Origin: Ignavibacteria bacterium | GTDB taxonomy: Bacteria; Bacteroidota; Ignavibacteria; Kapaibacteriales; UBA2268 | Assembly: GCA_026417135.1 (NCBI GenBank) | Contig: JAOADV010000003.1 | Location: 52,255 to 116,254, forward strand | Length of the DNA stretch: 64,000 nucleotides | Reading direction: 5' to 3' | Shown here: positions 19,444-25,846 of the stretch, one piece after another | Position numbering within the stretch: the first letter of the stretch is position 1 | How the letters are laid out: each line of letters begins with the position of its first letter | Translations under genes and position numbers: made by a program | The notes under the pieces: model-generated | What the model saw: only the letters and a program-made list of their open reading frames with translations | Told to the model about the DNA's origin: nothing | The model's database searches: none

Positions 19444-19529
19444 CTTAATAATATTTTGCAAAATCGAAACTTTTTTCAAACTAAATTGTCTTTAAATTTG
19501 GAGATATAATTTACAATTTGAAATAAGCT

Positions 19530-20612
19530 TTGAAAATTGAAGCAAAAAAACTGCAAATTTACTTCTTTTTGGTTTTATTGACTTTTAGTATAATAAGTTG
19601 CGACACATGCCGTTACAACGAAGTTTTTCCTATACCCGAAGGAGATATATTTTTTACAGCAGTCCCAGTAAACTCCAATGAACCCAGTATTTTTCAAATC
19701 GATTTAAATCAAAAAAATACATACGAAATAATTCGTAATGGAATACTTTATTCTCCACCTTCTTCCAATAAAAAGATAGTATTTATACGAAACAATCCCG
19801 GAGGAACCCAAGAAGTAGTTATTGCAAATATCGACGGAACTCAGCAAAAGGTTGTAGCTGGCTCTTACCGCTGGTATTCGAGAGATTTTGCAATTCTATC
19901 GAGTAATGGAAATTCAATTGCTATAGGAGCAAATGGTAACGAACTTTGGCTTGTCCGAAACGAAAATATGTTTACAAAATTGAGCAATAACTTCTGCCGA
20001 GGCACAATACCAGCCTTTTCGCCCGACGGTAGCAAAATAGCTTTAATCGAAGCCAAAGATATTTACACCCCTCCCCACAACTTGGTAGTTTACTACATCG
20101 AAAGCAACCAAATCGTGAAACTAAAGAATGTTACTTTACCCGGAACTATCGTAGAACTTTTCGGCGAACCGAACATATATTGGAGTTACGATGGCACGTA
20201 TATCTTTGCAATCATTTCGAATGATTCAAGAGAAGTTTCTATCTACACTACCAGTTACGAAGGTAGCTACGAACAAATCAGAAAGGTTGAATTAGTCGGT
20301 TGTGCTTATTTAGAACCTACAGAAGATATTGATAAATTTTTCATTACTGGTCTGGATGGTTCCATTTGGTATATCAATTTCCGAGAGGAGGTAAAACGCT
20401 ATAAATATATTTCCCCAGGATTTGGTTTCTCCTATAATCTTTTTCCTAAGTACAACAAAAAACTGAATCACTTACTTTACACAAGATATTATCGCGACGA
20501 CCTTCAACTTCAAAGTGGAACACTCGAACTTCTAAACCTCAACGAAGAAAATGCTAAACCAAAAATCATAAGTAGTAATGTTTATCGTGCATTTTGGAAT
20601 CCTAAAAAATGA
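19530..20612 (+). CDS. lipoprotein with TolB/WD40-like beta-propeller repeats
   Basis: 360 aa; lipobox SIISC, IVIANIDGTQQKVVAGSYRWYSRD, PAFSPDGSKIALIEA; TTG start. Confidence 0.65.
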   Translation: MKIEAKKLQIYFFLVLLTFSIISCDTCRYNEVFPIPEGDIFFTAVPVNSNEPSIFQIDLNQKNTYEIIRNGILYSPPSSNKKIVFIRNNPGGTQEVVIANIDGTQQKVVAGSYRWYSRDFAILSSNGNSIAIGANGNELWLVRNENMFTKLSNNFCRGTIPAFSPDGSKIALIEAKDIYTPPHNLVVYYIESNQIVKLKNVTLPGTIVELFGEPNIYWSYDGTYIFAIISNDSREVSIYTTSYEGSYEQIRKVELVGCAYLEPTEDIDKFFITGLDGSIWYINFREEVKRYKYISPGFGFSYNLFPKYNKKLNHLLYTRYYRDDLQLQSGTLELLNLNEENAKPKIISSNVYRAFWNPKK

Positions 20613-21175
20613 ATGAGTTAGACGATTTAACGAACTGGACCGATATCGAACTTTGCTTGGCAATGACCAGAAGCCATAAAGAAGCAGAACGTGCATTTAC
20701 AGAAATTTACAACCGTTATAGCAGAAATCTTTATGCATATATACTTCGAACGCAAAACGATAGAACTAACGCCAAAGATATTTACCAAGAAGTTTTCTTA
20801 CGCTTTTGCGACTCTGTCAAAAAAGGCACAAGAGTCCATAATATACTATTTTTCCTTATTAAAATTGCCCGAAATATATGCATCAACAATACTCGTGCAA
20901 ACAAACAATTTATCCAATTCGATGAAAACGAATATCCCTTCCTCTCAATGCCGAGTGTCGAAAAAGACGAGTTGGTAAGCATCGTAACCAATGCTTTAAA
21001 TTTGCTTGAATACACAAGTAGAGAAATATTCATACTACGACACTATCAAGAATTTACATTTCAAGAGATTGCAGAAATAATGGGCGAAACGCTTGCAACT
21101 ATTAAATCGCGCTACTACCGCGCACGCGAAAAACTAAAGGAACACCTTCTTCCATTTTTCAAAAATGAATATTAA
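20609..21175 (+). CDS. ECF-type RNA polymerase sigma factor
   Basis: 188 aa; FTEIYNRYSRNLYAYILRTQNDRTNAKDIYQEVFLRF (region 2), REIFILRHYQEFTFQEIAEIMGETLATIKSRYYRAREKLKEHL (region 4). Confidence 0.93.
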   Translation: MNELDDLTNWTDIELCLAMTRSHKEAERAFTEIYNRYSRNLYAYILRTQNDRTNAKDIYQEVFLRFCDSVKKGTRVHNILFFLIKIARNICINNTRANKQFIQFDENEYPFLSMPSVEKDELVSIVTNALNLLEYTSREIFILRHYQEFTFQEIAEIMGETLATIKSRYYRAREKLKEHLLPFFKNEY

Positions 21176-21195
21176 CAAAAGGTGGAATAAATAAT

Positions 21196-22452
21196 ATGAA
21201 TTTTTCAAATTTAATCGACTTATATTTGGAAGGAGAATTAAGCGATGTCGAAAAAAACTTGTTATTTAACGAGCTTGCTCGTAACCCAGCTCTTCGCGAG
21301 GAATTCGAACAACAATTAAAATTTAATTTTGCATACAAAAAAGACCTCGCTCAAATTCAAGTTCCTACGGACAGCACAAATTATATTTTTTCTGCATTGA
21401 ACTTCAAAATTCCAAATTCTATTAGTGTAAAAACCACTCCAATTTCGTTCTTCGCCGAAAAATTCAAATATTTTACTGTTCGCTTTGCTCCTTTATTATT
21501 CTCAAGTGTTATTGGGAGCTTACTCACTTTTTTGCTCTTATGGTGGCTTTTCCCAGCAAAGATTGTCGAAACAAGTTCAAGTTCAATTTCTTATCCTACC
21601 ACAGAAATTGGCGTTCCATTGGGAACCGCATATCCTACCCTACCAGAACAAAGTCGAAATCAAAACGATAATTCAAACCTAAACAACATTAAGAATTGGG
21701 ATGTATTGTTTGAAAAGGCATTGGAAAATGTCCTCAAGAAAAACCAACAAGAAAGCAACAATTTAACTGAAAGTGAGTTGAAACCCAAAGAAGAATTTAT
21801 TATCGAAACCACTCAAAGTAAATTTACTACAAATCTATCTCCATCGTTAAACAACAATACAGGAAACATCATTAATCCAAACGAAAGCATAACCACTTTC
21901 TCTGACCCTTTTACTCAAAACTTTATGAAACAATTGAATACCTCGACAAACTTAAAGGACTATTTGAAAAATATTACTTTAAGTTTCAGAGGACATAACT
22001 TAAAATCCGACCCCGAAGTAAAGTTAAACCTTGAGGAAAAGAGTTTACTGAACAATACTTCGGTAGCAATTGGTTACAATCTCTCCCAAAACAGTAACTT
22101 GGCCTTTGAATTCGGGCAGGAAAAGTTCCCACAAAAATTTAAACTTAATGTTTACGGGGACAATCTGTATTACAAGCAAAATCCTTTGCTTTGGTGGTAC
22201 GGTATTGCATATCAACTAAGTATCTTGAAAATATTTAGGTGGGAAAACTTTCAACCTTATGCCAGAATATTCGCTGGAGCAACCACCGTTGGACCTCTAT
22301 TCCGTGGCTCTATCGGTTTCAAATATTCTCCGGACAATAGAATAAACCTTTTCATAGGTTGGGAAGGCTCGTACTTGCTCTATAAGGTTCAAAATGTTCA
22401 TTATAACACTCGAAAAAGTGGATTGATGTATGGAGTAACAATTCAGTATTAG
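21196..22452 (+). CDS. putative dual-membrane-spanning anti-sigma factor (cytoplasmic anti-sigma-like N-terminus, TM helix, periplasmic linker, C-terminal OM beta-barrel-like domain)
   Basis: 418 aa; IDLYLEGELSDVEKNLLFNELARNPALREEFEQ N-terminus; TM about aa 97-119; Ser/Asn-rich linker; about 8 amphipathic strand-like segments aa 287-418 ending VTIQY; directly downstream of the ECF sigma. Confidence 0.6.
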   Translation: MNFSNLIDLYLEGELSDVEKNLLFNELARNPALREEFEQQLKFNFAYKKDLAQIQVPTDSTNYIFSALNFKIPNSISVKTTPISFFAEKFKYFTVRFAPLLFSSVIGSLLTFLLLWWLFPAKIVETSSSSISYPTTEIGVPLGTAYPTLPEQSRNQNDNSNLNNIKNWDVLFEKALENVLKKNQQESNNLTESELKPKEEFIIETTQSKFTTNLSPSLNNNTGNIINPNESITTFSDPFTQNFMKQLNTSTNLKDYLKNITLSFRGHNLKSDPEVKLNLEEKSLLNNTSVAIGYNLSQNSNLAFEFGQEKFPQKFKLNVYGDNLYYKQNPLLWWYGIAYQLSILKIFRWENFQPYARIFAGATTVGPLFRGSIGFKYSPDNRINLFIGWEGSYLLYKVQNVHYNTRKSGLMYGVTIQY

Positions 22453-22456
22453 AACG

Positions 22457-23188
22457 GTGAATGTTTTTTTTTCGACATTAGTCTTTTTGCTTGCAATAGT
22501 TTTCTGCGGTTGTCAATGCATACCCAATCTTGAGACCGACAGAGAAATTTCCCCATCTCAATACGCAAAGGTAATGTGTGTTAATGCATTACCCAACGTA
22601 GAGAAAATAAAAATTACCGTCGGTAATATCCTTTTGCATTCAGCATTGACTTATGAAATGGAAGAAGGTTTCCGCTACTTTAACGTCCCTTATGGGGTAA
22701 TCAATTTCAATATCGCAATTAAAAATGATTCGATAATCTATAAAGGTATGGCAAATTTACAAAAAGGGAAAGCATACACTTTTTTTGTCTATCAGATGCA
22801 AAGAAGAGCTCAAGGCTTGCTCCTCGAAGACGATGTGAGTACTTACTCACTCACAAATTCTTATTTCCGATTTGTCAATCTACTTATAAATTCTCCACAT
22901 TCTCTTCTGTTTAGCATAGAACACCAATATCCAATCGTTATTAACCTTGTTTTTAAAACTTATACCAAATTTTATACAACATACCCAGACAAGTACGTTA
23001 TTACTATAAAAGATGCCGAAAAAGATAGCATAATTGCACAATCTAAAAATTTCCAATTACTGCCCGGAAAAGGTTACACTATTGTTTTGCGTGGCGATTA
23101 CCTTGACAAAACAAAGCGATTAGGTCCAAACTTATTAGTCATCCAACACGACTTTGAACAGGTTTTCGAAATAAACGAAAAAAAATAA
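22457..23188 (+). CDS. lipoprotein, DUF4397-like
   Basis: 243 aa; signal peptide with FCGC/CQC, YAKVMCVNALPNVEKIKITVGN..FNVPYGVINFNI. Confidence 0.5.
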   Translation: MNVFFSTLVFLLAIVFCGCQCIPNLETDREISPSQYAKVMCVNALPNVEKIKITVGNILLHSALTYEMEEGFRYFNVPYGVINFNIAIKNDSIIYKGMANLQKGKAYTFFVYQMQRRAQGLLLEDDVSTYSLTNSYFRFVNLLINSPHSLLFSIEHQYPIVINLVFKTYTKFYTTYPDKYVITIKDAEKDSIIAQSKNFQLLPGKGYTIVLRGDYLDKTKRLGPNLLVIQHDFEQVFEINEKK

Positions 23189-23265: not shown

Positions 23266-23511
23266 TTGCCTATGTTTTGGACACCAGAGCTTGCATCGTA
23301 CCTCGAAGATGCTCCTTTTCCAGCAACAAAAGAAGAACTGCTCGATTATGCCAATCGAACTGGGTGCCCACAACAAGTTATCGATAATCTTATGGAAATA
23401 GAAGACGAAGAAATGGTTTTCGAAGGAATAGAAGACCTTTGGCCCGAGTACGAGGAATTATCTTCGGAGGACTATTTTTACAACGATGATGAGGAGGAAC
23501 AATATACCTAA
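23266..23511 (+). CDS. DUF2795 family protein
   Basis: 81 aa; FPATKEELLDYANRTGCPQQVIDNLMEIEDEE..YEGIEDLWPEY-type pattern. Confidence 0.8.
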   Translation: MPMFWTPELASYLEDAPFPATKEELLDYANRTGCPQQVIDNLMEIEDEEMVFEGIEDLWPEYEELSSEDYFYNDDEEEQYT

Positions 23512-23590: not shown

Positions 23591-25846
23591 ATGGTAAAAG
23601 CAAGATTATATAAAGCCACAATTACCCTTTTTTGTTTTTTTATTCAACAACTAAGTCTTTCTTTGATAGCAAAAAATTCAAATTACTTACAAACAGAAGG
23701 GAGCTATTCATTACTCGAAATTGGTGAAGTAACTTTCGAAGGCAACAAATCGTTTCCAGCACATAGACTACAAAGCATCATTTCATCTAAACCCACGACT
23801 AAAAGTATCCCCCACAAAATAGTTTCCTTCTACTATACCAACATAAAAAAAAATCCCGCAGCACCAAAATCACTAATCAAGCTGTTGCAGACAACAGTTA
23901 ATCAGTTTTCGGATGAAATCTCTTTGTATAAGGAAAATCGTGTAGAATCGGATAAAAGGACTTTAGAGCTCTTCTACTATCAACAAGGATTTCACGAAGT
24001 TAAAGTAAACTACACAATCTCATTTAATAAAGAAAACAAATCTTATGTTTTAAAATTTATCATTGACGAAGGACCGCAATATCTAATAGATTTCATTGAA
24101 ATTAGTGGTTTGGAAAATATCTCGCAATCGTTACTACAAGAAATTGAATCGCTTAGAAATCTACGGAAAGGTATCCCTTTCAACGAGCCACAACTTGCCG
24201 AAGATTTGACTAAAACTAGAATACTTTTAAGAGAAAATGGGTTTTATTACGCAGATTTCAAAACCCCGAAAGTTGTTATCGACACATCTAAAAAAATAGA
24301 TAGTGTATTTGTCGAATTCTTAACTGGCAAACCAGTAAGGATAAATAAAATTACTTTTATCGATAGTACCAATGGACAAAACCGAGTAGGTTACAATGTT
24401 AAACTCAATCATCTCGATTTCAGAGAAGGCGACTTATACAACCAACGAAAAGTTGTGAGTTCTGAAATAAATTTAAGTTCTCTTGGAACTTTTGAACTTG
24501 TTAGAATCGACACTTCTTCTGCTTTTGCTCCAATTACCGATACAAGCATAAGTATGGCTATTCTCTTGCGTTATCGTAAGTTAAGGGATTTTGGTTTGGG
24601 ACTTTTTACAAATAGAACCTCAGCCGAAAAAGCAATCAATCTTGGAGTTGAATTATCTATAAACGATAGAAACATTTTTGGTGGTGGACAATCTGCAAAT
24701 CTCTTTTTTCGAACCTTTGCTATTGATGTAAGCAGAGCTTTGCTCGAAAAAAAGCCACTTGAATACGAACTACAAACTGGCTTCTATTTGGTTCAACCTT
24801 TGCTTTGGACAATACGCTCCTCTCGCGTTGGACTTTCGAGTTCAATGCTTTATTCTCAAAGGAAAGTCTTCAGAGCATTGCAACTAAATACCTTTACTTT
24901 TTCGGTAAAGTTTCCAACGAGACTACCCTTTTGGACTTATTTTAACTTCTTAGATATAGATTTCAATTTCGAAAGACAAGTACCCAAAAATTTCGAAAGT
25001 GCATCCTCAGAATTTTATAAGTCAGCAACCTCTTTTCAAGATTCACTTCGAATACAACAAGCAATTTCAATCTTTGGAAATCTAAATAAATATATTCGCG
25101 AAGAAAATCCTTTCTTGACATCTGCTATTTTTGCAATTAACATAGTTGGTGATAATCGAGACAATCCATTGATGCCACAGTCTGGAAGATTAACAAACCT
25201 TGGAATAGATGGTTACTTTTTGTTCGGAATGGCTAAGTTTTATCGTATTAGTTTAACTTTTCAATGGTTTTGGAACTTGAACAATCGATTGGTTTTGGCT
25301 TCTAAAATTCGTGGGGGGCACATTTTTTGGCTCGACAAGGAGAATAGTTTCGTACCATTCGACCGACATTTCTTTGCAGGCGGAGCAAATAGCATTCGTG
25401 GATGGGCATCGCGCCAGCTCCGATACCACAAAGGTATCCGTGTCGATACAAGCAGTTCCGAACTTGTTAACATTTTCTTACGCGATTTCGTTGGAAATGC
25501 TTCTATTTTTGAATCCTCGGTTGAACTTCGATTTCGATTTGGAAGACCCGCCTACATCGATAAAACTCTTGCAAGCATCCTTGAACTTTTGACTATAACT
25601 CTATTCCTCGATGCTGGTAATTCGTATCAATGGCTAGTAAAAGGTCAATCCAATAAATATGCAGTTGAATATACCTTAAAAGATTATATTTTTGGAATTG
25701 CACTTGCCGGAGGGTTTGGTATCGGATTTATTACTCCCGCTGGTCCATTATTTATTGATGTTGGTTTTCCTTTCTTCGACCCTAATAAAGAAAGGAAGTT
25801 TCTCGATAAACCTCTCTTTCATATAAGATTAGGTTATTCTTTCTAA
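23591..25846 (+). CDS. BamA/TamA-like outer membrane protein (POTRA + Omp85 barrel)
   Basis: 751 aa; POTRA-like VTFEGNKSFPAHRLQSII and YYQQGFHEVKVNY; barrel RHFFAGGANSIRGWASRQL, GGFGIGFITPAGPLFIDVGFPF. Confidence 0.88.
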   Translation: MVKARLYKATITLFCFFIQQLSLSLIAKNSNYLQTEGSYSLLEIGEVTFEGNKSFPAHRLQSIISSKPTTKSIPHKIVSFYYTNIKKNPAAPKSLIKLLQTTVNQFSDEISLYKENRVESDKRTLELFYYQQGFHEVKVNYTISFNKENKSYVLKFIIDEGPQYLIDFIEISGLENISQSLLQEIESLRNLRKGIPFNEPQLAEDLTKTRILLRENGFYYADFKTPKVVIDTSKKIDSVFVEFLTGKPVRINKITFIDSTNGQNRVGYNVKLNHLDFREGDLYNQRKVVSSEINLSSLGTFELVRIDTSSAFAPITDTSISMAILLRYRKLRDFGLGLFTNRTSAEKAINLGVELSINDRNIFGGGQSANLFFRTFAIDVSRALLEKKPLEYELQTGFYLVQPLLWTIRSSRVGLSSSMLYSQRKVFRALQLNTFTFSVKFPTRLPFWTYFNFLDIDFNFERQVPKNFESASSEFYKSATSFQDSLRIQQAISIFGNLNKYIREENPFLTSAIFAINIVGDNRDNPLMPQSGRLTNLGIDGYFLFGMAKFYRISLTFQWFWNLNNRLVLASKIRGGHIFWLDKENSFVPFDRHFFAGGANSIRGWASRQLRYHKGIRVDTSSSELVNIFLRDFVGNASIFESSVELRFRFGRPAYIDKTLASILELLTITLFLDAGNSYQWLVKGQSNKYAVEYTLKDYIFGIALAGGFGIGFITPAGPLFIDVGFPFFDPNKERKFLDKPLFHIRLGYSF

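Follow-up and report, generated by a model that had tools for sequence, protein, structure and literature searches.

The 418-aa protein encoded from position 21196 of the window (the whole 64,000-nt stretch of contig JAOADV010000003.1 analysed here, from an Ignavibacteria bacterium) is likely to act as the anti-sigma factor of the ECF sigma encoded immediately upstream and, by its predicted structure, to bridge both membranes [Table 1]. That the outer membrane can report its condition to transcription by way of a single covalent polypeptide has been described only recently, in Bacteroidales. The presence of such a protein throughout Kapabacteria (NCBI taxonomy places Kapaibacterium in the Bacteroidota, class Eximiradiia), with a different sigma-binding end, is suggestive of an older or repeatedly arisen solution.

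Table 1. Features of the sigma/anti-sigma locus (coordinates in the window)
Feature	Coordinates	Strand	Basis
Putative ECF-type promoter, AACTTTTTT-N10-TGTCT	19468..19491	+	Conservation in the genus; exact-match genome scan
Beta-propeller lipoprotein, lipobox IISC	19530..20612	+	ORF; weak PD40/TolB-like matches
ECF sigma factor, 188 aa	20609..21175	+	Pfam sigma70 regions 2 and 4; NCBIfam ECF models
Anti-sigma factor gene (probable), 418 aa	21196..22452	+	ORF; homologues; sigma synteny; AlphaFold2; Foldseek; profile matches
Predicted four-helix anti-sigma domain at the N-terminus, residues 1-67	21196..21396	+	AlphaFold2; RsiW/DdvA/RseA profile matches; PRK13920
Predicted inner-membrane TM helix, residues 86-118	21451..21549	+	AlphaFold2; charge bias
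Predicted disordered periplasmic tether, residues 119-259	21550..21972	+	pLDDT; composition
Predicted C-terminal 8-stranded outer-membrane beta-barrel, residues 260-418	21973..22449	+	AlphaFold2; Foldseek against the PDB
DUF4397 lipoprotein, GTG start	22457..23188	+	Pfam PF14344, 9.1e-16

The sigma factor carries sigma-70 regions 2 (3e-10) and 4 (3.8e-14) by Pfam, and a gap of 20 nt separates its gene from the next, which is preceded by the ribosome-binding site AAAGGTGG. The 418-aa protein has no Pfam match of its own, and its residues 5-68 weakly match the NCBIfam anti-sigma model PRK13920 (6.6e-4). Homologues occur in all 30 relatives searched, which belong to the same taxonomic order (Candidatus Kapabacteria), and a same-strand ECF sigma gene lies directly upstream of 81 of the 82 homologous ORFs, mostly 50 nt away or less; the pairing is therefore not due to chance. 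The sole exception is a barrel-type homologue of 265 aa with no sigma gene nearby (L095:3667-4464), likely a fragment. Evolutionary distances between the sigma factors correlate with those between the anti-sigma domains (r 0.60; partial r 0.50, 0/1000 permutations) and with those between the barrels (r 0.48); sigma evolution is linked more closely to the anti-sigma domain than to the barrel. Barrel-carrying genes of this family number about three to ten in each of seven genomes searched (raw matches, which include split gene pieces and matches to the N-terminus only, range from 3 to 18 per genome), beside 7 to about 40 sigma-70-family genes per genome.

In the AlphaFold2 model of the protein, built on an alignment of 76 homologues, the N-terminal helices (residues 3-67) have pLDDT values mostly above 90, dropping to about 84 at the end. 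The three best matches of the N-terminal profile in the PDB were RsiW, DdvA and RseA, all of them anti-sigma factors, although the E-values (0.016-0.22) would by themselves be weak evidence of anti-sigma identity. NCBIfam anti-sigma models further matched 14 of the 76 homologues, the best at 3.9e-9. The domain type is thus that of RsiW (partner of SigW) and RseA (partner of SigE), proteins which, unlike the Kapabacteria protein, have no outer-membrane barrel. RsiW also binds zinc, whereas a zinc anti-sigma factor could be ruled out here: the HxxxCxxC motif is present in none of 80 homologues and the N-terminal domain is devoid of Cys. That the domain is of RsiW type makes the cytoplasmic half of the protein interpretable from solved complexes.

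Contact between the two partners was modelled on in-frame sigma/anti-sigma pairs of relatives, with the intervening stop codon read as Gly so as to yield one chain. In the chain from one of these relatives (L065; pTM 0.75), the sigma part matched SigW of the SigW-RsiW complex with a TM-score of 0.83-0.85, but RNAP-bound ECFs with only about 0.33-0.45 and the sigma factors of the SigE-RseA and AlgU-MucA complexes poorly (0.42-0.46). The anti-sigma domain of this relative is accordingly predicted to hold its sigma in a compact, inhibited arrangement like that of SigW-RsiW, with the reservation that a single read-through chain may force the proximity of the two parts and that the model is that of a relative, not of the window's own pair.

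The TM helix was modelled with a pLDDT of about 88 and is preceded by a positive charge bias in 65 of 80 homologues, which by the positive-inside rule predicts an N-in orientation for the family. The tether that follows is Asn/Ser/Thr-rich (42% S/N/Q/T) and, one predicted helix excepted (168-187), mostly disordered, with pLDDT values mostly below 55 over residues 119-250. About 20 residues past the TM helix lies a GVPLGTA island (139-145; 21607-21630); within the genus, 27% of tether positions 136-150 are invariant as opposed to 0-2% in the remaining tether. Our guess is that the island serves as a protease or partner site.

The C-terminal strands (260-417) reach pLDDT values mostly between 88 and 98, and the ten pieces listed were taken to be eight strands, of which two are interrupted. 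In the PDB, the best Foldseek match was NspA (1p4t; TM-score 0.63 on the target), other top matches being OmpA, OmpX, Ail and OprF, all outer-membrane barrels, and a soluble C-terminal domain was rejected on these grounds. Hydrophobic alternation in the strands is only modestly above that of shuffled sequences (105 of 5000), so that the assignment rests on structure prediction and conservation in the family. While the fold is common to OmpA, OmpX and NspA, the barrel described here is part of one covalent chain with a helix of the inner membrane and a predicted sigma-binding domain. An earlier note on this DNA, made from its letters, had proposed a sigma gene followed 20 nt downstream by a protein with an anti-sigma-like N-terminus contacting that sigma, one TM helix, a Ser/Asn/Gln-rich linker and an eight-stranded barrel. 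The coordinates, spacing and length that it gave are exact, the synteny on which it had staked the pairing is conserved, and each of the proposed parts, as well as the contact in a relative, was recovered in the predictions above.

The closest precedent in architecture is Dma2 of Bacteroides thetaiotaomicron, which acts with Das2 and consists of an anti-sigma domain, a TM helix, a disordered tether and a C-terminal barrel (PMC13088901); we know of the Dma1/Das1 pair of the same species through its citation in that paper. Using the published neighbours of dma2 (DUF4943, DUF4858 and a nitronate-monooxygenase-like gene; PMC13088901) to find the locus, we gathered a comparison set of 29 Bacteroidales Dma proteins; two of the loci (L148 and L149) show the published gene order. 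Domain order, the adjacent sigma gene, a gene for a small protein downstream and a Bacteroidota host are common to both groups, and we are highly confident, as far as architecture is concerned, that the Kapabacteria protein works like a Dma. Another Bacteroidales system, the M0N98_03760-61 pair of P. vulgatus, similarly combines a sigma with a large anti-sigma factor with a predicted outer-membrane barrel and responds to envelope stress, its sigma gene being induced 33-fold in a response observed when cells met an antibacterial toxin (PMC9308784).

The earlier note had further seen in the protein a possibly divergent Dma with different neighbours. The likeness in architecture stands and the neighbours do differ, propeller and DUF4397 lipoproteins taking the place of DUF4943/NigD, but the protein is not simply a diverged Bacteroides Dma, since the anti-sigma domains of the two groups have no detectable similarity (2% probability in profile-profile comparison). 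The profile comparison that the note had called for was weakly positive for the barrel, at about 70% with full-length profiles and 25% with the barrels cut out, and negative for the N-terminus; nor did the Kapabacteria profile find Bacteroides Dma2 in profile searches. The Kapabacteria anti-sigma domain is a fuller RsiW/RseA type than that of Bacteroides, its cytoplasmic part is about twice as long, the TM helix starting at about residue 98 rather than about 51, and its tether is shorter (about 138 aa versus about 198 aa in Bacteroidales). We therefore regard the protein as a variant with Dma architecture and not as a proven member of the family, since the sequence of its anti-sigma domain is unmatched there.

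How the two groups came by the same design may be read in two ways. A barrel-less RsiW-type anti-sigma factor of Ignavibacteria-like kind may have gained a tether and a barrel in the Kapabacteria branch, a scenario to which we give about an even chance, or both groups may have inherited one ancestral Bacteroidota dual-membrane anti-sigma factor, which would make the present protein a true diverged Dma and which we hold to be somewhat short of even. The identical domain order, the adjacent ECF sigma, the small secreted-protein genes downstream in both groups and the barrel score argue for inheritance, although the last, given its fall once barrels are cut out, may equal that expected of unrelated small barrels. 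Some Bacteroidales N-termini do match the same anti-sigma models weakly, but only from about position 47 (last helix and TM), so that a shortened common domain is conceivable. The dissimilar anti-sigma domains and the displaced TM helix speak against inheritance, as do the sigma partners: in a tree with few outgroups and a bootstrap not settled, a supported branch (95/99) splits those of Kapabacteria from the Bacteroidales Das clade, and the Kapabacteria side also holds Ignavibacteria-like sigmas together with further ECFs from the window's genome.

That separation is in keeping with a separate invention, as is the finding that the Kapabacteria profile, which has no match to Bacteroidales Dma N-termini, matches Ignavibacteria-like anti-sigma factors of 153-155 aa (2e-23 and 2e-18). 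These short genes, found in other families of the class (L143:798-2503 and L144:774-2557), encode no barrel and sit between an ECF sigma gene and a lipoprotein-like TonB_C gene. The same pattern would, however, result if the short forms had lost a barrel, other families of the class also have the long form (L140, L141), and the few outgroups of the sigma tree weaken its testimony on this side too. On balance we lean slightly towards an independent origin.

Gene order suggests that the functional unit is larger than the pair and runs from the propeller lipoprotein through sigma and anti-sigma to the DUF4397 lipoprotein. The end of the propeller gene overlaps the start of the sigma gene by 4 nt and the DUF4397 gene starts 4 nt after the anti-sigma gene; the propeller gene adjoins sigma in 4/4 genus relatives (53-60% identity), the DUF4397 lipoprotein is present in the same proportion (52-60% identity), and several other members of the family also have both genes, at greater divergence. 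Across the family, a lipoprotein-like gene lies within 120 nt downstream of 58 of 77 homologues, compared with 56 of 384 other ORFs (Fisher P 1.4e-25), these lipoproteins belonging to several different families. The operon supplies two lipoproteins and a promoter as candidates for what is sensed and what is controlled. Our broader conjecture, which we hold to be less likely than not, is that Kapabacteria built the dual-membrane anti-sigma factor independently and use it as a standard means of surface sensing, in cassettes in which every barrel has a surface lipoprotein of its own that serves as its ligand or gate. Signalling of the FecR/TonB-dependent transducer type was considered and rejected: no Pfam match to a FecR-type domain or an adjacent TonB-dependent receptor was found in the protein or its neighbours, which are lipoproteins, CheW and Omp85.

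As we picture it, the RsiW/RseA-type cytoplasmic domain would clamp the sigma between its regions 2 and 4, one helix would span the inner membrane and about 140 disordered residues the periplasm, and the barrel would reside in the outer membrane. A barrel properly inserted, or bound to a partner (for instance either co-encoded lipoprotein), would keep the sigma off. If the outer membrane or the barrel were disturbed, a periplasmic protease would gain access to the tether, cleavage would be completed by an M50 site-2 protease, and the freed sigma would switch on its own operon along with other genes. An M50 protease is encoded in the window's genome, but such proteases are near universal and its presence is not specific. 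The inhibited-type arrangement in a relative, the pairing, the folds and the conserved operon and promoter are computed results, whereas we infer the proteolytic release of sigma, which taken alone could equally well hold or fail, and likewise the localisation, signal and regulon. The barrel might instead never insert, or be cut off, in which case the protein would in effect behave like any inner-membrane anti-sigma factor that has a periplasmic domain. The long and almost unconserved tether would allow this and the localisation of the protein is a prediction; a high-confidence barrel conserved throughout the family, and the prediction that the Bacteroidales precedents extend as far as the outer membrane (PMC13088901, PMC9308784), make it improbable.

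A putative promoter lies 38 nt upstream of the start codon assigned to the propeller gene. Five genus members share the block, with some differences, within an intergenic region that has otherwise diverged, and its pattern occurs once within the window. Since a one-mismatch pattern was at chance level, only exact matches were used: there are seven in five genus genomes, six of which lie upstream of ECF sigma operons; two of the seven are, by construction, the propeller/sigma operon itself, and four of the remaining five precede other ECF sigma genes. Together, the conserved block and these matches suggest an ECF-type promoter that is probably autoregulated. In the genus, the block is also found ahead of ECF sigma genes of two other kinds, exactly in L193-L195 and L197 and with one mismatch in L203 and L206, so that one type of promoter may be shared, or used crosswise, by several ECFs. 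The other exact match in the window's genome (G000:C11:307263-307286; L196) lies 52 nt before a gene for a NUDIX-like hydrolase (family read by eye), a candidate member of the regulon. A scan for sigma-70-type promoters gave no excess over shuffles (15 vs 16.3), and one for terminators a weak excess only. Past the operon, positions 23266-23511 encode a small acidic DUF2795 protein that is 87-90% identical across the genus and has a conserved block upstream, and positions 23591-25846 an Omp85 protein of BamA/TamA type that has POTRA repeats and is likewise conserved in the genus.
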